This document shows positions 3,553 to 29,979 of a DNA stretch of 30,681 nt, in pieces (the stretch's first letter is position 1; each line of letters starts with the position of its first letter). The translations under genes and the position numbers were made by a program. The DNA is taken from positions 1 through 30,681 of the IMG/VR virus record IMGVR_UViG_3300008120_007117, one strand, 5' to 3'. The notes under the pieces were generated by a model. The model was not told the origin of the DNA, searched no databases, and was given only the letters and a program-made list of their open reading frames with translations. Origin of the DNA: a virus.

Positions 3553-3601
3553 CCGTGGAAGGTGCCCTTCGAGAGAGGTGGTGTACCCCCCTTCTATACG
3601 G
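3553..3601 (+). ncRNA. Structured leader or small RNA candidate
   Basis: CCGT (3553-3556) can pair with ACGG (3598-3601) and encloses a perfect hairpin GAAGG-TGC-CCTTC (3558-3570) plus a second imperfect GC-rich hairpin around 3576-3592. This is a small three-way-junction shape. It lies in the leader of the lysozyme-like gene, in the stretch where the long open frame could otherwise be read as coding. Evidence is base pairing only. Confidence 0.35.
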
Positions 3602-3623
3602 ATGTAGAGTTCAATTAATTTTA

Positions 3624-4256
3624 ATGCAAAACATCTTTACTGTAGCCCTGCCCCTTCTGGCATCGGTTACAACCAATATGGCAACACTGCCTGTATTTCC
3701 TCCTTTGACGGCACCACCAACGCCATTTTCTGTTGTTAAGGAGTTTGAAACTACGACAGCGATCCGAGAGGTTGCTCCCGAAAAGCCAAAAGAGAAAAGG
3801 CTAATTTGTAAAGGGTGTTCAGAACATGAACAACTTGCTGTGGATTATTTCCAAGAGCAAGGAATTAAAGACAGAAACGCCCTTGCTACTATCCTGGGCA
3901 ATATTAAGCAGGAATCTATGTTCGTGCCTAATATTTGTGAAGGTGGTAGTAGGACCAGTTATCATAACTGCGGACGTGGTTATGGTCTGATCCAATGGAC
4001 ATCTGCCGATCGTTATTATGGATTGGGTGAATTTGCTAAGAAGTTTGGTGGTTCTCCATCAGCACTTCCAACGCAACTTCGTTATCTGACGAATGAAGTT
4101 CAATGGAAACGAATCGAAGACCGAATGAAAACTCCTGGTAAGTCTATCGATCGCTACATGAACTATGCGTACAGTTGGATTGGTTGGGGCATTCATGGTG
4201 CTCGTACATCTTATGCTCATGAATATGCTAACCGACTGATCACGGTAGAAGTTTGA
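3624..4256 (+). CDS. Phage tail lysozyme-like protein
   Basis: From the ATG at 3624 the product is 210 residues. A hydrophobic N-terminus (IFTVALPLLASV) and a proline/threonine linker lead to a lysozyme-fold domain of the phage tail lysozyme type. Visible hallmarks are LATILGNIKQES, with the probable catalytic Glu, CGRGYGLIQWT, and a later YAYSWIGWGIHGA segment. It should cut peptidoglycan glycan strands during entry or lysis. The frame is open upstream to 3555, but that part crosses a structured RNA region and lacks protein-like composition, so I exclude it. Which virion part carries the protein is not visible. Confidence 0.85.
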   Translation: MQNIFTVALPLLASVTTNMATLPVFPPLTAPPTPFSVVKEFETTTAIREVAPEKPKEKRLICKGCSEHEQLAVDYFQEQGIKDRNALATILGNIKQESMFVPNICEGGSRTSYHNCGRGYGLIQWTSADRYYGLGEFAKKFGGSPSALPTQLRYLTNEVQWKRIEDRMKTPGKSIDRYMNYAYSWIGWGIHGARTSYAHEYANRLITVEV

Positions 4257-4270
4257 CAAACTGAATAGGT

Positions 4271-4297
4271 GAGGGGGGCTTGACAGATGCCCCCCTC
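4271..4297 (+). terminator. GC-rich hairpin containing the -35 box of the tRNA promoter
   Basis: GAGGGGGGC (4271-4279) pairs perfectly with GCCCCCCTC (4289-4297). The loop is the -35 box TTGACA plus a few bases. No T tract follows, so intrinsic termination is less certain than at the three sister sites. It would end transcripts from the lysozyme-like gene. Confidence 0.6.
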
Positions 4298-4308
4298 CCA
4301 TCTATAAT
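4280..4308 (+). promoter_or_regulatory. Sigma70-type promoter for tRNA-Arg
   Basis: TTGACA (4280-4285), a 17-bp spacer and TATAAT (4303-4308) form a consensus host-type promoter. The tRNA-Arg gene begins 16 bases after the -10 box, leaving almost no leader. The -35 box forms the loop of the hairpin at 4271-4297. Confidence 0.9.
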
Positions 4309-4324
4309 AAACAAGTGATCAATT

Positions 4325-4398
4325 GGACCAGTAACTCAGTGGACAAGAGTATCCGCCTTCTAAGCGGTTAGCCGTAGGTTCGAATCCTACCTGGTCCG
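4325..4398 (+). tRNA. tRNA-Arg (UCU)
   Basis: Acceptor arms GGACCAG and CTGGTCC pair over seven base pairs with discriminator G. The anticodon loop CTTCTAA gives UCU, and the T arm holds GTTCGAATC. CCA is not encoded. It reads AGA codons, favoured by an AT-rich phage. Confidence 0.97.
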
Positions 4399-4424
4399 TT
4401 GGAGATTTATTCTCCATATATAAA

Positions 4425-7792: not shown

Positions 7793-7820
7793 AACCACCC
7801 TTTCTAGGGTGGGTTTTTTA
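7793..7820 (+). terminator. Rho-independent terminator after the porin gene
   Basis: CCACCCT-ttct-AGGGTGG followed by GTTTTTTA is a canonical intrinsic terminator, separating porin from pstS transcription. Confidence 0.93.
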
Positions 7821-7835
7821 TTCTGCAATCAAAAC

Positions 7836-7854
7836 CTTAACCAATTCTTAGTGG
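7836..7854 (+). promoter_or_regulatory. Probable Pho box upstream of pstS
   Basis: CTTAACCA (7836-7843), three bases, then CTTAGTGG (7847-7854) give two 8-bp repeats with 11-bp spacing, the layout of cyanobacterial Pho boxes (CTTAACCT-type). The first repeat fits well, the second in four of its first five bases. Host phosphate-starvation control of phage pstS through PhoB is known for other cyanophages, which supports the call. The start codon lies 51 bases downstream. Confidence 0.7.
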
Positions 7855-7904
7855 ACTTTAAGGTTCTGTTTCAGTATTATTACTTACGAAGTTATTCACT
7901 TTTT

Positions 7905-8867
7905 ATGAAACTCAAAAACTTTATTGCTATTGGTCTAGTTGCTGCACCTGTCGCTGCTCTTGCTGGATCTACTTTGAATGGTGCTGGTGCCACCTTCCCC
8001 GCACCAATTTATCAACGCTGGTTCCAAGATTATGCACGAACTTCTGGGAGTAGGGTTAATTATCAGTCCGTTGGTTCTGGCGCTGGTGTTCGTCAATTTA
8101 TTGCGGGTACAGTTGACTTCGGAGCAAGTGACGAACCAATCAAACCAGCAGAAGCAGCAAAGGTGAAGCGTGGTGTCGTTCAAATCCCTATGGTGGGTGG
8201 AACGATTGCTGTTGCTTATAACAAGCCTGGTTGCAAACTGAAACTGACTCAGAAGCAAACTGTTGATATTTTTGCTGGACGTATCAAGAATTGGAACCAA
8301 GTTGGTTGTGCTGCTGGTCCTATGACTGTGGTTCATCGTTCTGATGGTTCTGGAACTACCTTTGCATTCACCAACTCTCTGGATGCATTTGGTGGTTGGA
8401 CTGCTGGTGTTGGTAAGTCAATTAACTGGCCTACTGGTGTTGGTTCAAAAGGTAACGAAGGTGTTGCTGGAACCATCAAGAACACTGCTGGTGGTATTGG
8501 TTATGTGAATACTGGATTTGTTCGTGCTAACAAACTCCAAGCAGCAGTTCTTCAAAACAAGGCAGGTAAGTTCGTTGGACCTTCTGCTGTGACTGGTTCC
8601 GCTGCTTTGAATAGTATTACTTTGGATGCAAACCTTGCTGGTGAAAATCCAAATCCTGCTGGTGTAAATGCATATCCCATTTCTACTCTGACTTGGATTC
8701 TTGCTTATAAGAAAGGTAATGGTGCAAAGACTGATGATATTCGTGCTGCTATCAACTATGCCCTGAGTACTAAGGCACAATCGATTGCTGATGATCTTGG
8801 ATATGTTCCTCTTTCAGGAAGTGTTCTGAACAAAGCACGTCTTGCTGTTGGTCGCATCGGCAACTGA
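7905..8867 (+). CDS. pstS: Phosphate ABC transporter substrate-binding protein
   Basis: From the ATG at 7905 the product is 320 residues with a signal peptide (MKLKNFIAIGLVAAPVAALA) and the PstS phosphate site: GAGATFPAPIYQRW near the mature N-terminus, SVGSGAGVRQF, VDFGASDEP and HRSDGSGTTF. It captures phosphate in the periplasm and hands it to the host PstCAB permease, so the phage can sustain phosphate supply in a starved host. The upstream extension to 7809 crosses the terminator and Pho box and is not coding. A hairpin with T tract ends the gene. Confidence 0.97.
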   Translation: MKLKNFIAIGLVAAPVAALAGSTLNGAGATFPAPIYQRWFQDYARTSGSRVNYQSVGSGAGVRQFIAGTVDFGASDEPIKPAEAAKVKRGVVQIPMVGGTIAVAYNKPGCKLKLTQKQTVDIFAGRIKNWNQVGCAAGPMTVVHRSDGSGTTFAFTNSLDAFGGWTAGVGKSINWPTGVGSKGNEGVAGTIKNTAGGIGYVNTGFVRANKLQAAVLQNKAGKFVGPSAVTGSAALNSITLDANLAGENPNPAGVNAYPISTLTWILAYKKGNGAKTDDIRAAINYALSTKAQSIADDLGYVPLSGSVLNKARLAVGRIGN

Positions 8868-8875
8868 CATACATA

Positions 8876-8901
8876 GGGGGGGTTGACAAAACCCCCTTTT
8901 T
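8876..8901 (+). terminator. pstS terminator with embedded -35 box
   Basis: GGGGGTT (8878-8884) pairs with AACCCCC (8890-8896), followed by TTTTT. It is a good intrinsic terminator. The T bases at the end of the 5' arm begin the TTGACA of the next promoter. Confidence 0.9.
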
Positions 8902-8911
8902 AATGTATTAT
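8883..8911 (+). promoter_or_regulatory. Sigma70-type promoter nested in the pstS terminator
   Basis: TTGACA (8883-8888), a 17-bp spacer and TATTAT (8906-8911). The spacer is exactly the 3' arm and T tract of the pstS terminator. It drives the small gene starting at 8933. Confidence 0.88.
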
Positions 8912-8932: not shown

Positions 8933-9085
8933 ATGTCTCTTATTTCCCAAACAGACCGTCAAATGGTCATTGAGGCACTTGAATTTTATAATATGCAAAA
9001 GAATAATTGCAATGAAGCGGCAATCTATTCTTATAATACGCTTCTTCGCTGGATAGAACTAGAATATTTCAAGAATGAAAATTAA
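8933..9085 (+). CDS. Small hypothetical protein (50 aa)
   Basis: This frame has one of the best ribosome sites in the window, AGGAGG seven bases before ATG, and sits 21 bases behind a consensus promoter. The product is helical-looking and soluble (QTDRQMVIEALEFYN; LLRWIELEYF). The promoter and ribosome site argue for strong early expression. No family is recognised. Confidence 0.8.
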   Translation: MSLISQTDRQMVIEALEFYNMQKNNCNEAAIYSYNTLLRWIELEYFKNEN

Positions 9086-11577: not shown

Positions 11578-11686
11578 AGCACTTTTATTTGTTTCAATTC
11601 CTTTCGTATTAACAACTCTTTATTTCGGAACAAAAGGAGGGTATTATGATACCGAAAAGTATAAAGGAAATGGAACCGCACATTAG
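11567..11686 (+). CDS. Small membrane protein (39 aa)
   Basis: The ATG lies 11 bases inside the end of gnd. A hydrophobic helix (LGKALLFVSIPFVLTTLYFG) leads to a polar tail (GGYYDTEKYKGNGTAH). The last 41 bases overlap the next gene in another frame. Single-pass membrane peptide of unknown role. Confidence 0.6.
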   Translation: MLGKALLFVSIPFVLTTLYFGTKGGYYDTEKYKGNGTAH

Positions 11687-11867
11687 ACAGCGGTATCACT
11701 TTGCAACATCAGCATTTGTGAGAATGTGGGGACATAAATCATTAAATGATCGTCGTATTGTGGAATTTTGTCAGGTATGGGCTCATAGAACTGAAAATGC
11801 CCCATTGGATGATAAAGTTCTTGATCAATATTTTTATTACGAATTTAAAACTTGGAGAGGATACTGA
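11646..11867 (+). CDS. Small soluble hypothetical protein (73 aa)
   Basis: A strong ribosome site (GGAGG five bases before ATG) supports this start even though it lies inside the preceding small gene. The protein is basic, aromatic and soluble (MEPHIRQRYHFATSAFVRMW; FYYEFKTWRGY). The stop overlaps the next ATG by one base. I recognise no family. Confidence 0.75.
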   Translation: MIPKSIKEMEPHIRQRYHFATSAFVRMWGHKSLNDRRIVEFCQVWAHRTENAPLDDKVLDQYFYYEFKTWRGY

Positions 11868-12084: not shown

Positions 12085-12113
12085 TTGACACAAAAACCCA
12101 AACACTTTATAAT
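12085..12113 (+). promoter_or_regulatory. Sigma70-type promoter for 12137-12582
   Basis: TTGACA (12085-12090), 17-bp spacer, TATAAT (12108-12113). The first ATG is 24 bases downstream. Confidence 0.9.
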
Positions 12114-12136: not shown

Positions 12137-12352
12137 ATGTCTCTGATCCAAAAATTCAAGAAAGATGTTAGCACTCTTCGTCTTGCTGCTAACGGGGAAA
12201 TCTACCTTGATGTAAAGAATCCGAAACTTTATAAAAAGGTTCGCCGCTTTTATGAAAACGAAGGCGTCGTATTTTCTGGTGACCCCCTTGATGATTACGA
12301 AATGCTTATGGAGTACATCGATCAAGATCTTGAATCTATTGAGGTTGCATGA
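12137..12352 (+). CDS. Small hypothetical protein (71 aa)
   Basis: Soluble, mixed-charge protein with an N-terminal basic helix (SLIQKFKKDVSTLRLA) and an acidic C-terminus (DDYEMLMEYIDQDLESIEVA). It is the first gene behind a consensus promoter and overlaps the next by four bases (ATGA), so the two are probably co-translated early genes. No family recognised. Confidence 0.8.
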   Translation: MSLIQKFKKDVSTLRLAANGEIYLDVKNPKLYKKVRRFYENEGVVFSGDPLDDYEMLMEYIDQDLESIEVA

Positions 12353-12582
12353 CAAAAGTTCTTCTGGAACGTGAAGGATATCGCTTTGTTGAAGCAGGTA
12401 TTCTTGAAATAAACGGTAAACCCGATTATCGCTTGCAAAAGCAAAACTATTATACCAAACGCTGGAATGACATTTATCTTTTTGATAATGGTCTACAATG
12501 TACTACTGCAATGGAAGACATTGAATATGCGAAGTGGTTAGATCCAGATAGAGTTCCTTGTTATGTGAGAGACGATGATTAA
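12349..12582 (+). CDS. Small hypothetical protein (77 aa)
   Basis: Soluble protein rich in charged and aromatic residues (GYRFVEAGILEINGKPDYRLQ; YYTKRWNDIYLFDNGL), suggesting a small beta-strand domain. Its stop is directly followed by the hairpin ATAGTC/GACTAT (12583-12601), which may help end the unit. Function unknown. Confidence 0.8.
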   Translation: MTKVLLEREGYRFVEAGILEINGKPDYRLQKQNYYTKRWNDIYLFDNGLQCTTAMEDIEYAKWLDPDRVPCYVRDDD

Positions 12583-12601
12583 ATAGTCTCGGGATGACTA
12601 T
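12583..12601 (+). terminator. Hairpin after the small gene pair
   Basis: ATAGTC (12583-12588) pairs with GACTAT (12596-12601) with a seven-base loop, followed by AAAAG instead of a T tract. It could be a processing site or weak terminator. Confidence 0.35.
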
Positions 12602-12631
12602 AAAAGCGCACTGGTCGGGAGCAAACCCCTT

Positions 12632-12859
12632 ATGTCTAAAACAAGTATCCTAAGGTATCTTGGGAACTTTCTTCTCATAATTGGTTATCAAACTATGTTG
12701 TGGGGAAATTTTAAATATGGTTTGCTGGTCAAAGTTATTGGAGGATTTCTAACAGTACCTTTTGCCATTAAACTTAAACTTTGGGATGTACTATTCTTAT
12801 GTGCATTCTTTGGTATTACCGAGATATCAAAGTTAACCCAACTTTTCTTAGTTTCTTAA
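12632..12859 (+). CDS. Small multi-pass membrane protein
   Basis: 75 residues, mostly hydrophobic, with two to three likely membrane segments (YLGNFLLIIGYQTMLWG; YGLLVKVIGGFLTVPFAI; DVLFLCAFFGI). The stop codon lies in the palindromic hairpin at 12847-12866. The gene is isolated between a hairpin and a long structured spacer. No recognised family. Confidence 0.75.
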   Translation: MSKTSILRYLGNFLLIIGYQTMLWGNFKYGLLVKVIGGFLTVPFAIKLKLWDVLFLCAFFGITEISKLTQLFLVS

Positions 12860-12866
12860 AACTAAG
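12847..12866. repeat. Palindromic hairpin over a stop codon
   Basis: CTTAGTTT (12847-12854) pairs perfectly with AAACTAAG (12859-12866). It overlaps the TAA of the membrane protein gene and could stabilise or end that transcript. Confidence 0.55.
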
Positions 12867-12994
12867 TGGTGGAGTCAATCTGACCCCTTCTGGTTTCTTG
12901 CTTTTCCATAAAAGAGCAAGTGGTGCGGATGGGACTCTCTCCCGCCTGGTTTCCAATTTCCAGTCAAAGAATTGGTGGCGAGCCTGAGTTACAG
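12867..12994 (+). other. Structured non-coding spacer before the glycan cluster
   Basis: This stretch has no convincing gene. It folds into CTTGCTTTT-ccat-AAAA-ga-GCAAG (12897-12920) and an extended hairpin CGCC...CCAATT...AATTGG.GGCG (12943-12980). The bases around 12921-12946 recall the 3' half of a tRNA on the minus strand, but no matching acceptor 5' half or T loop exists. It may be a small RNA or a decayed RNA gene. Confidence 0.35.
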
Positions 12995-13022
12995 AGGTGG
13001 GTTGCATAAACCCACCTTTTTT
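12995..13022 (+). terminator. Terminator with embedded -35 box upstream of gmd
   Basis: AGGTGGGTT (12995-13003) pairs with AACCCACCT (13009-13017) and is followed by a T tract, a clear intrinsic terminator. Its arm and loop contain the TTGCAT -35 box of the glycan cluster promoter. Confidence 0.9.
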
Positions 13023-13030
13023 AGTATAAT
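13002..13030 (+). promoter_or_regulatory. Sigma70-type promoter of the glycan cluster, nested in a terminator
   Basis: TTGCAT (13002-13007), a 17-bp spacer made of terminator arm plus T tract, and TATAAT (13025-13030). It is the only obvious promoter I found for the 16.6-kb cluster that begins at 13051. Confidence 0.8.
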
Positions 13031-13050: not shown

Positions 13051-14052
13051 ATGAAGGTTGCATTAATTACAGGTATTACAGGACAGGATGGATCTTATCT
13101 TGCTGAACTTCTTTTAGAAAAAGGTTATGAAGTTCATGGTATCGTAAGACGTGCATCTTTGATCAATACTCATCGTATTGATCATTTGTATCAAAATGTT
13201 AAGTTACATTACGGAGACTTAACAGACTCTACTAATATAGTAAGAGTTATACAAAAAGTCCAACCTGATGAAATTTACAATCTTGGTGCTCAGAGTCATG
13301 TCAAAGTATCCTTTGAGATGCCTGAATACACTGCTGATGTGGATGGTATGGGAACTCTTCGGGTTCTTGAAGCAGTGCGTCTTTTGGGTATGGAAGACCG
13401 TGTACGCATCTATCAAGCCTCTACAAGTGAACTTTACGGACTGGTTCAAGAAACTCCTCAAAAAGAAACAACTCCATTCTATCCTCGTTCCCCTTATGGT
13501 TGTGCCAAACTTTATGGATATTGGATAACCAAAAATTATCGTGAAGCATATGGAATGTATGCTTGCACTGGAATTCTGTTTAATCATGAATCGCCAAGAC
13601 GTGGAGAAACGTTTGTAACACGTAAGATTACTCGTGGTCTTTCAAAGATTTCTTGTGGACTTCAAGATGTTCTTGAACTTGGTAATCTAAATGCAAAACG
13701 TGACTGGGGACATGCTAAGGATTTTGTTGAGGCAATGTGGTTGATGCTTCAACAAGATCAACCAGAAGACTATGTGATTGCTACTGGTAAACAGTATTCT
13801 GTGCGTGAGTTTGTGGAAGAAGCGGCACCTTATTTTGGTATGAATATTGTTTGGGAAGGTGAAGGACTTGGTGAAGTAGGTATTGATAAGACTACTGGTA
13901 GAACGGTCATTAAGGTCAATCCTAAATATTTTCGACCTGCTGAAGTAGAGACTTTATTAGGTGATGCCACTAAGGCAAAGGCAAATCTAGGTTGGGAACC
14001 TAAGATTTCTTTTAAACAACTTGTTGAGGATATGTGCATTTATGGACAGTGA
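13051..14052 (+). CDS. gmd: GDP-mannose 4,6-dehydratase
   Basis: The 333-residue enzyme has the SDR signature [13 protein letters not shown] (8-20), the conserved STSELYG (124-130), and the catalytic pair Tyr149/Lys153 in [28 protein letters not shown] is typical of the family. It converts GDP-D-mannose to GDP-4-keto-6-deoxymannose using bound NADP, the first step to GDP-L-fucose or other deoxyhexoses. ATG at 13051 is preferred over the TTG two codons upstream. The next gene, the expected pathway partner, overlaps by 11 bases. Confidence 0.97.
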
Positions 14053-27892: not shown

Positions 27893-29668
27893 ATGAAGAT
27901 ATCTTTGATAGGTCCTGGAGTAATGCCCATTCCCCCCACAGGTTGGGGTGGTGTTGAGCATCTAATTTGGGATATGTACCAATCTCTCACTAAACTAGGA
28001 CATGAGATTCAAATAATCAATGAACCTGATCCTAATAAAATTCTGTTTTTACTGAATGAATTCAAACCAGAATTTGTTCACATTCAGTATGATGAGTGGG
28101 TTGGTCTTTATCCACATATAAAGTACCCTTGTGCTATCTCTACTCATTTCGCTTATATTGAAAGGCCAGAAAAAATGGCAACATATAAGGAAAGGTTCTT
28201 TGATCAGTTTGCCCATATTAAACCAACTATTCTAGGTCTATCCGAAGGTATTAATAAAGTTTATCGTGAACAATCGCAAATACCTAACGATAAAATTTTT
28301 CTTTTGCCAAATGGTTTAGATATCAATCTTTATAATTTTACGGAAACTCCAAAATACCCAGATAGATCAATATGCATTGGTAAGATTGAAGAGCGTAAAA
28401 AGCAGTATTTGTTACAACAAATTGATTCAATTTGGTATGCTGGAAACGTTGCTGATGATAGATTTGATAGTTCTAAAAATTACTTGGGAGAACTTCCTAA
28501 AACTCAGATCTTTGAAGAGTTAACTAACTATGGTAACTTGGTATTGATATCTGATGGTGAAGCACATCCAAGAGTTTGTACAGAAGCACTTGCTGCTGGT
28601 CTTGGCGTTGTAGTATCTCAATGGGGAATAGCGAATTTAGATTTGAGTAAAAATTTTATCACAGTTATTCCTGATGATAAAATAACAGACATTGAATATG
28701 TTGAGGAACAAATTACAAAGAATAGGGAGTATTCTATTCAACATCGTGAAGAAATACGTGAGTATTCTAAGAACTTTGAGTGGCAAAAAATATATGAAGA
28801 TTTTTATTTTCCTAGCATAGATAAAATTATTCAAACTTATAATGAAAAAAATAAAAAGGTTGAAATAAATTTTATGGATAAAAATAAATCTACACATAAA
28901 CTCAAAGGTCTTCCTCCCATTTACTATATCAATCTGGATGAGAAACCAGAGAGAGCAAAGTTTATGGAAGACCAGTTTAAATACTGGGAGGTTGAAAACT
29001 ATGAACGTATCTCTGCCTATGATGGGAGAGGAGATAGAGATCTTGGTGATATCTTAAAGGGACGTTATCCTGATATGATGTCTTCTGGTGAAGTTGGATG
29101 TGTAACTTCACATCTCAAAGCATTAAAGCATTGGTTGGAAACATCCGATTCTCCTTGTGCAATAATTATGGAAGATGATTGTGACATAAGCACTGTCACT
29201 CATTGGGGATTTTCTTGGAAAGATTTTTATGCAAAGGTTCCATATGATTATGATGTGATACAACTTGCCATCATTAATCCTGCACAGGTTCACGTCCAAT
29301 TGCATCGTCGTTTTGTAAATGACTTTTCAACTGCCTGCTATATGATCACAAGGCATCACGCACAGAAACTTATTAATCTTCATTGTCGTGGAGATAAGTA
29401 TAAACTTGATCAGGGTGTGAAACCACGTGCAGTTGCTGATGATTTAATCTATAATTCTGGAAATACTTTTGCTATCCCATTATTCTTGTATAAGATTGAC
29501 TTGGGTTCTGATATTCATGATATTCATGTTGATGTATTTCATCGCAGTAGTCATGATGGATTATGGCAGTTTTGGAGAAATCAATCTGCCGATGTATCTG
29601 ATTGGAATTCATTTTTTGATTATGATCCATATCTTGGAAGACTACCTCCTGGATGGGAAGGAAAATAG
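27893..29668 (+). CDS. GT4-GT25 two-domain glycosyltransferase
   Basis: 591 residues. Residues 1-325 are GT4-type (PIPPTGWGGVEHLIW at 11-25; DGEAHPRVCTEALAAGLG), closely related to the gene at 21644. Residues about 337-560 are GT25-type (LPPIYYINLDEKPER, GEVGCVTSHLKALKHW, AIIMEDDCD). A lysine-rich linker (NEKNKKVEINFMDKNKS) joins them, with an internal Met328 that could start the second domain alone. One protein may therefore add two consecutive sugars. In the GT4 and GT25 copies at 21644-24059 the same activities are separate genes. Last gene of the cluster. Confidence 0.88.
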   Translation: MKISLIGPGVMPIPPTGWGGVEHLIWDMYQSLTKLGHEIQIINEPDPNKILFLLNEFKPEFVHIQYDEWVGLYPHIKYPCAISTHFAYIERPEKMATYKERFFDQFAHIKPTILGLSEGINKVYREQSQIPNDKIFLLPNGLDINLYNFTETPKYPDRSICIGKIEERKKQYLLQQIDSIWYAGNVADDRFDSSKNYLGELPKTQIFEELTNYGNLVLISDGEAHPRVCTEALAAGLGVVVSQWGIANLDLSKNFITVIPDDKITDIEYVEEQITKNREYSIQHREEIREYSKNFEWQKIYEDFYFPSIDKIIQTYNEKNKKVEINFMDKNKSTHKLKGLPPIYYINLDEKPERAKFMEDQFKYWEVENYERISAYDGRGDRDLGDILKGRYPDMMSSGEVGCVTSHLKALKHWLETSDSPCAIIMEDDCDISTVTHWGFSWKDFYAKVPYDYDVIQLAIINPAQVHVQLHRRFVNDFSTACYMITRHHAQKLINLHCRGDKYKLDQGVKPRAVADDLIYNSGNTFAIPLFLYKIDLGSDIHDIHVDVFHRSSHDGLWQFWRNQSADVSDWNSFFDYDPYLGRLPPGWEGK

Positions 29669-29706: not shown

Positions 29707-29733
29707 GGGGTGCTTGACACCCCTTTATTTTTG
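29707..29733 (+). terminator. Glycan-cluster terminator with embedded -35 box
   Basis: GGGGTG (29707-29712) pairs with CACCCC (29718-29723), loop cttga, followed by TTTATTTTT. It ends the glycan transcript 39 bases after the last stop, and its loop and 3' arm hold the next -35 box. Confidence 0.85.
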
Positions 29734-29742
29734 CTATATAAT
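29714..29742 (+). promoter_or_regulatory. Sigma70-type promoter for hli, nested in a terminator
   Basis: TTGACA (29714-29719), 17-bp spacer, TATAAT (29737-29742), both consensus. The hli ATG lies 28 bases downstream. Confidence 0.92.
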
Positions 29743-29769: not shown

Positions 29770-29979
29770 ATGACCGTAACAACTAATGATCGCGGACAAA
29801 TGAATATGTGGGCAATTGAGCCACCTGTTTATATTTCCGACGAAGACGCTATCAAATATGGGATGAAGACTTATGCGGAACGTGCTGAATCTGCTAATGG
29901 ACGCTGGGCTATGGTCGGCATTGTTGCTGGGTTCATTTCTTATGCTATCACTGGCAACCTCTACTTCGGACTCTTCTGA
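29770..29979 (+). CDS. hli: High-light-inducible protein
   Basis: From the ATG at 29770 the protein is 69 residues with one membrane helix carrying the Hli chlorophyll-binding motif ERAESANGRWAMVG (37-50; Glu40, Asn43, Arg45) and the family-like end TGNLYFGLF. Hli proteins sit in thylakoid membranes and protect photosystem assembly and repair by quenching absorbed light. Phage copies are thought to keep photosynthesis running during infection. The open frame extends up to 29710, but that part covers the promoter. No cofactor residue is missing. Confidence 0.95.
   Translation: MTVTTNDRGQMNMWAIEPPVYISDEDAIKYGMKTYAERAESANGRWAMVGIVAGFISYAITGNLYFGLF

Follow-up and report, generated by a model that had tools for sequence, protein, structure and literature searches.

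The closest described counterparts of the elements considered here are the promoter-early stem-loops (PeSLs) of T4-type phages, composite promoter-terminator cassettes (Arbiol et al., 2010, PMC2839356; Comeau et al.; both as cited in PMC4503421). That cyanophage paper judged PeSLs too sparse to account for the rearrangements of S-PM2. A second relevant system is the recycling of RNA polymerase: in vitro, the Escherichia coli enzyme is often retained on its template once it has released RNA at an intrinsic terminator, and it can then initiate again close by (Kang et al., 2020, PMC6978380; Harden et al., 2020, PMC6978322). A third is the wcaG RNA (RF01761), which is annotated as cis-regulatory, has been described in potential 5' UTRs and has been given a possible riboswitch role (Weinberg et al., 2010, PMC2864571). 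For promoter-terminator overlap itself, literature phrase searches returned nothing relevant.

The window analyzed here, the whole 30,681-base stretch of an IMG/VR virus record, is a fragment of a T4-like freshwater cyanophage, and among annotated phages it is closest to the freshwater cyanophages S-SRM01, DSL-LC02 and DSL-LC03. We propose that four sites in it are composite boundary elements, in which the intrinsic terminator of an upstream, co-directional unit would carry, nested within it, a host-type sigma-70 promoter for the next unit, that such elements also act as joints between gene modules, and that they are a nested variant of PeSLs. We consider this reading likely, and we suggest that viruses of freshwater and marine cyanobacteria have repeatedly fused stop and start signals in a single 36-base element. 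The four sites, with their predicted boxes and their neighbors, are as follows.

Site 1: 4271-4308, plus strand; hairpin GAGGGGGGC/GCCCCCCTC surrounding the -35 box, arm at 4271-4279
Site 1 boxes: plus strand; -35 TTGACA at 4280-4285, -10 TATAAT at 4303-4308, spacer 17
Site 1 neighbors: plus strand; tail-lysozyme gene 3555-4256 upstream, tRNA-Arg 4324-4399 downstream
Site 2: 8876-8911, plus strand; G7/C5 hairpin with the -35 box in the stem end and loop, and a T tract
Site 2 boxes: plus strand; -35 TTGACA at 8883-8888, -10 TATTAT at 8906-8911, spacer 17
Site 2 neighbors: plus strand; pstS 7809-8867 upstream, small ORF at 8933 downstream
Site 3: 12995-13030, plus strand; AGGTGGG/CCCACCT hairpin with TTGCAT in the stem end and loop, and a T6 tract
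Site 3 boxes: plus strand; -35 TTGCAT at 13002-13007, -10 TATAAT at 13025-13030, spacer 17
Site 3 neighbors: plus strand; small-ORF operon and wcaG RNA upstream, GDP-mannose 4,6-dehydratase gene (ATG at 13051) downstream
wcaG RNA (RF01761): 12889-12989, plus strand; full length, 98.9 bits against a gathering score of 42
Consensus promoter without hairpin: 12085-12113, plus strand; probable start of the operon 12137-12859, which runs through wcaG to site 3
Site 4: 29707-29742, plus strand; GGGGTG/CACCCC hairpin with loop CTTGA and a T-rich spacer
Site 4 boxes: plus strand; -35 TTGACA at 29714-29719, -10 TATAAT at 29737-29742, spacer 17
Site 4 neighbors: plus strand; glycosyltransferase gene 27893-29668 upstream, hli (ATG at 29770) downstream

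Direct reading of the sequence bears out the initial annotation in its main points: a G-rich arm, a -35 box, a C-rich arm and a -10 box are present at all four positions, the spacer is exactly 17 in every case, and each site lies between two transcription units, all of them on the plus strand. The T tract that it described as usual is found at sites 2, 3 and 4, which thereby have the form of intrinsic terminators, and is missing from site 1, whose spacer is GATGCCCCCCTCCCATC; because site 1 and its tRNA-linked relatives lack the tract, termination there is doubtful. As predicted promoters, sites 1 and 4 match the sigma-70 consensus at 12/12 bases, site 2 at 11/12 and site 3 at 9/12, the last having a poor -35 box in TTGCAT (3/6 consensus bases). 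The T4-style late promoter was rejected as a candidate, no TATAAATA form being present at the four sites. A further terminator hairpin with a T tract (CCACCCTTTCTAGGGTGGGTTTTTT) lies at 7795-7812, between the porin gene and pstS; since it overlaps the listed GTG start of pstS, the true start of that gene is probably further in.

In the mechanism that we envisage, the -35 TTG would occupy the loop or the upper end of the stem; the 17-bp spacer would consist of the descending arm plus the T tract and lead into the -10 box. RNA arriving from upstream would fold into the hairpin and come free at the T tract, immediately before the -10 box; separately, holoenzyme would bind the same DNA as a promoter and start RNA about 7 nt past the -10 box, so that the hairpin would be excluded from the new RNA. 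Judging by known footprints, polymerase engaged in either step would cover the other element, and the two functions would then have to interfere with or feed each other, possibly through co-directional interference or polymerase recycling. The initial annotation had offered opposing polymerase traffic, which we reject, as the units on either side are co-directional at all four sites, and mutual exclusion through hairpin folding, which is unlikely since only RNA from upstream would form the hairpin, and the hairpin precedes the predicted new start. Cyanobacteria are generally held to lack Rho, in which case intrinsic terminators would be the main borders between units.

With a promoter-like site defined as a TTG, a 17 bp spacer and a -10 box matching at 5 or more of 6 bases, a hairpin surrounds the -35 box at 4 of the 17 such sites in the window, against 2.7% with shuffled flanks (P ~0.001), and at 19 of 263 in seven pooled cyanophage isolates, against 4.3 expected (P ~1.5e-7). 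The comparison of related phages with shuffled sequence that had been proposed earlier thus finds the element enriched over chance, although by the criteria used Syn9 and S-CRM01 contain no nested copy. Nested elements are present in S-SM2, S-PM2, SynMITS9220M01 and S-SRM01. Seen from the terminator side, 164 distinct terminator-like hairpins in the seven isolates have 17 promoters within 60 nt; in 11 of these the TTG is in the loop, at -4 to 0 relative to the loop center, and no promoter falls at +1 to +60 from it. One might object that terminators and promoters will overlap by chance in the crowded intergenic regions of compact genomes, and the window alone gives only P ~0.001; this is contradicted by the sharp positional peak, as well as by the bacterial-genome control, the covariation and the orthologous conservation described below, and we find it scarcely credible.

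At IMG/VR sites of the form GGGG-N0-4-TTGACA-N17-TATAAT, the spacer holds CCCC in 38/134 cases and GGGG in 4/134, whereas at GGGG-TTGACA-17-TATAAT sites in bacterial genomes the counts are 5/119 and 16/119 (Fisher P=1.7e-7), which rejects a generic trait of bacterial promoters. Fourteen of the 16 contigs with both hairpin and T tract encode cyanophage-like proteins. Reversed arms (CCCC...GGGG) also exist (10/127, against 38/134 for the G-first order), and this rules out an effect of the G arm alone; pairing rather than G-richness would be what matters, with the G-first order still preferred.

Another alternative is that these are terminators only, with UUGA or UUGC as a favored loop, the downstream TATAAT an accident of AT-rich sequence, and no working promoter. 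The 28 loop-TTG hairpins without a -10 box in the cyanophage set are as this would have it, and TTGCAT is weak as a -35 box. However, a -10 box stands at the matching place in 23/51 hairpins with a loop TTG and in 41/213 others (P=2e-4), with a spacing of exactly 17 bp in 19 of the 23, so that a loop-preference artefact is rejected as a full account; the non-TTG loops of the same set, moreover, are usually TTCG and GAAA.

The position downstream of the tail-lysozyme gene also speaks against terminators only, which we regard as very unlikely. There, nearly all relatives have a hairpin after the gene, but whether promoter boxes accompany it depends on context: they are present in 11/12 cases when a tRNA comes next and in 2/35 otherwise (11/2/1/33, P=5e-8). 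Two of the 13 promoters in this slot (loci L400 and L414) adjoin the hairpin rather than lie inside it, and other relatives have a late-like TATATAAACATA instead. The lysozyme slot is in this sense, as far as sequence can tell, a natural experiment that separates the hairpin from the promoter boxes.

Conservation was compared at this and three other slots, upstream of the GDP-mannose dehydratase gene, downstream of pstS and upstream of hli, and in the relatives at all four the boxes are kept while the arms vary in concert; the locus sets were collected by similarity and are not independent samples. When all TTG-N-AA promoters were taken without context, covariation was diluted by unrelated promoters, and the wcaG-linked set was used instead: in its 46 elements, 305/322 arm pairs form, against 260 +/- 4.4 under arm permutation, with compensatory exchanges among A-T, G-C, T-A and C-G, and the spacing is 17 in 54/58. 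The hli and pstS slots show many different arm pairs around constant boxes, and in the hli elements the sixth -35 base shifts so as to maintain pairing (TTGACA, TTGACC, TTGACG); the permutation test at the hli slot is weak (39 observed, permuted mean 32.8, maximum 38) because most arms there are G-rich and C-rich. Some relatives without a hairpin still retain TTG-17-TATAAT, a further point against terminators only, and in another hli-slot group a separate terminator supplies, through its descending arm and T tract, a TTGTTT at the same 17-bp distance. Together, the enrichment, the fixed 17-bp spacing and the covarying arms argue for the earlier suggestion that one compact element may end one unit and start the next.

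The same comparison bears on the possibility that the inverted repeat is a DNA-level operator, that is, a dyad at which a phage or host protein would block the -35 box, and not an RNA hairpin. The absence of a T tract from site 1 fits an operator, as do repeated dyads with the -35 box in the arms in two virus contigs that are not from cyanophages. On the other hand, an operator would conserve its sequence, whereas these arms vary freely among relatives with pairing kept, and in the hli, pstS and dehydratase classes a T tract follows just one side of the repeat; we hold an operator to be most improbable at the window's sites. The non-cyanophage dyads (six copies in L067, three in L083), of the form GGGG-TTGACA...GTC(G/A)ACCCC...TATAAT without a T tract, seem closer to operators or to a different nested class. 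In S-SRM01, three related promoters with hairpins (AAGGGYAC-TTGAAA-ACAGGTGCCCTT...TATAAT/TATGAT; L571 near 12020 and 16772, L572 near 1558) would form a second family of nested elements, one that has no long T tract.

Site 3 has a neighbor that the other sites lack, a wcaG RNA that ends five bases before the hairpin. By a hand count of fetched loci, a nested element directly follows wcaG in about 54 of 66 distinct 3' flanks, a sample skewed toward dehydratase loci; in the wcaG-linked set the distance from the wcaG anchor to the TTG is 12-28 nt. A promoter just upstream of wcaG is absent in 62/63 cases. Among the named isolates checked, the element follows wcaG in S-SRM01, DSL-LC03, SynMITS9220M01, S-SM2, Bellamy and S-CREM1 (the last with an 18 bp spacer by inspection) and is absent after it in S-CAM1, Sf-CH1b, S-H9-2, S-H38, Syn1 and Sf-FR1. 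Since the predicted promoter follows wcaG, a transcript that starts from it would contain the downstream gene but not wcaG, and we suggest that in these phages wcaG would often lie at the 3' end of the upstream unit and outside the next gene's main mRNA. Small hairpins repeated in tandem (like AGTCACGGAGAGACTTTAAAAGTACTGGTGGAGTCAATATGACCC or ...CTGGTCGGGAACCCCC) are often present 5' of the RNA, in the window at 12600-12631 and 12846-12884, in L158 at about 3880-4015 and in L403 at 11640-11740; they matched no Rfam family in the loci scanned, apart from a weak wcaG-like match (19.7 bits) of one unit in the window.

The site 3 hairpin might be the expression platform of a wcaG riboswitch, in which wcaG would decide whether transcription stops or continues into the sugar genes, with the TATAAT secondary. 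In the window, as in the majority of copies sampled, wcaG stands directly before the hairpin, which favors such a platform, as does its annotation as a cis-regulatory RNA with a possible riboswitch role (PMC2864571). Yet no conserved competing pairing is evident between the 3' end of wcaG and the arms, since the arms change while that end stays constant, with no matching change; a conserved promoter separates wcaG from the gene; and sites 1, 2 and 4 have the same element without wcaG. We consider a riboswitch platform unlikely, though it is compatible with the composite boundary reading and both could act at site 3. Somewhat more doubtful still is a stronger version of the boundary reading, in which the nested geometry would be a functional coupling: polymerase would be handed from the hairpin to the inner promoter, the next unit would be transcribed in proportion to the preceding one, and at site 3 the relay would be set by wcaG, acting as a 3'-end element rather than as a 5' UTR riboswitch candidate.

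The proposal that the composite elements are module joints draws on two other loci, L164 and L185, rather than on the window's own four copies. Each has sugar-nucleotide genes enclosed by two copies of the element that lie about 1 kb from each other. Identity to L165, a relative without the insertion, is 78% and 94% for the flank upstream of copy 1 and 96% in both loci for the flank downstream of copy 2, and the inner flanks have no match to L165; at copy 2, similarity starts at the arm or the -35 box. Different genes are also found after the same element. We infer that recombination at the elements may exchange modules on either side of them and place cassettes between copies.

If the composite reading holds, cyanophage genomes, for which few transcripts have been mapped, could be searched with a simple signature for the borders of transcription units and for the joints at which auxiliary metabolic and sugar-nucleotide genes are acquired. 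It would make post-termination recycling of polymerase testable in a natural setting, and it questions the 5' UTR reading of phage wcaG RNA, which is often separated by a promoter from its supposed target gene. It would also bring cyanophages within the PeSL concept, with a more compact version of the cassette, the role of PeSLs having been doubted for S-PM2 (PMC4503421).

Set against the three known systems, the likenesses and the differences are as follows. The RNA upstream of site 3 is a full-length member of the wcaG family; that family was described in potential 5' UTRs, whereas here it usually ends just before a terminator-promoter, without a close promoter of its own. A promoter at the point of RNA release would be an ideal target for retained polymerase, although the recycling studies used E. 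coli polymerase in vitro on templates with separate elements, and the elements here are nested and known from sequence. With PeSLs, the elements share a predicted sigma-70-type promoter combined with a stem-loop between small genes, of intrinsic-terminator form at sites 2-4 of the window, and, in L164 and L185, copies that flank exchangeable modules. In RB49 and T4, however, the promoter lies downstream of the hairpin, mostly at about +27 to +43 from the loop center, and this side-by-side order of terminator then promoter differs from that of the nested elements here, with the -35 box in the loop: loop and downstream promoters stand at 24:11 in eleven cyanophage genomes and at 5:26 in T4, RB49, KVP40 and Aeh1 (P=2e-5). 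KVP40, a T4-type Vibrio phage, has eight related elements (loci L807-L813) with the -35 box within the hairpin and a TATTAT-like -10 box, but there a long stem (AAAAGGGTTGAC/GTCAGCCCTTT) holds the -35 box in its 5' arm and the spacer is usually 18 bp, whereas in the cyanophage elements the box is in the loop, the arms vary and the spacer is 17 bp. We presume these repeated KVP40 elements to be the PeSLs of Comeau et al. from 2014. Because the geometry in cyanophages is nested and not side by side, the elements would best be filed as a nested variant of the PeSL, a class known here through the citing paper and through the geometry measured in RB49 and T4.
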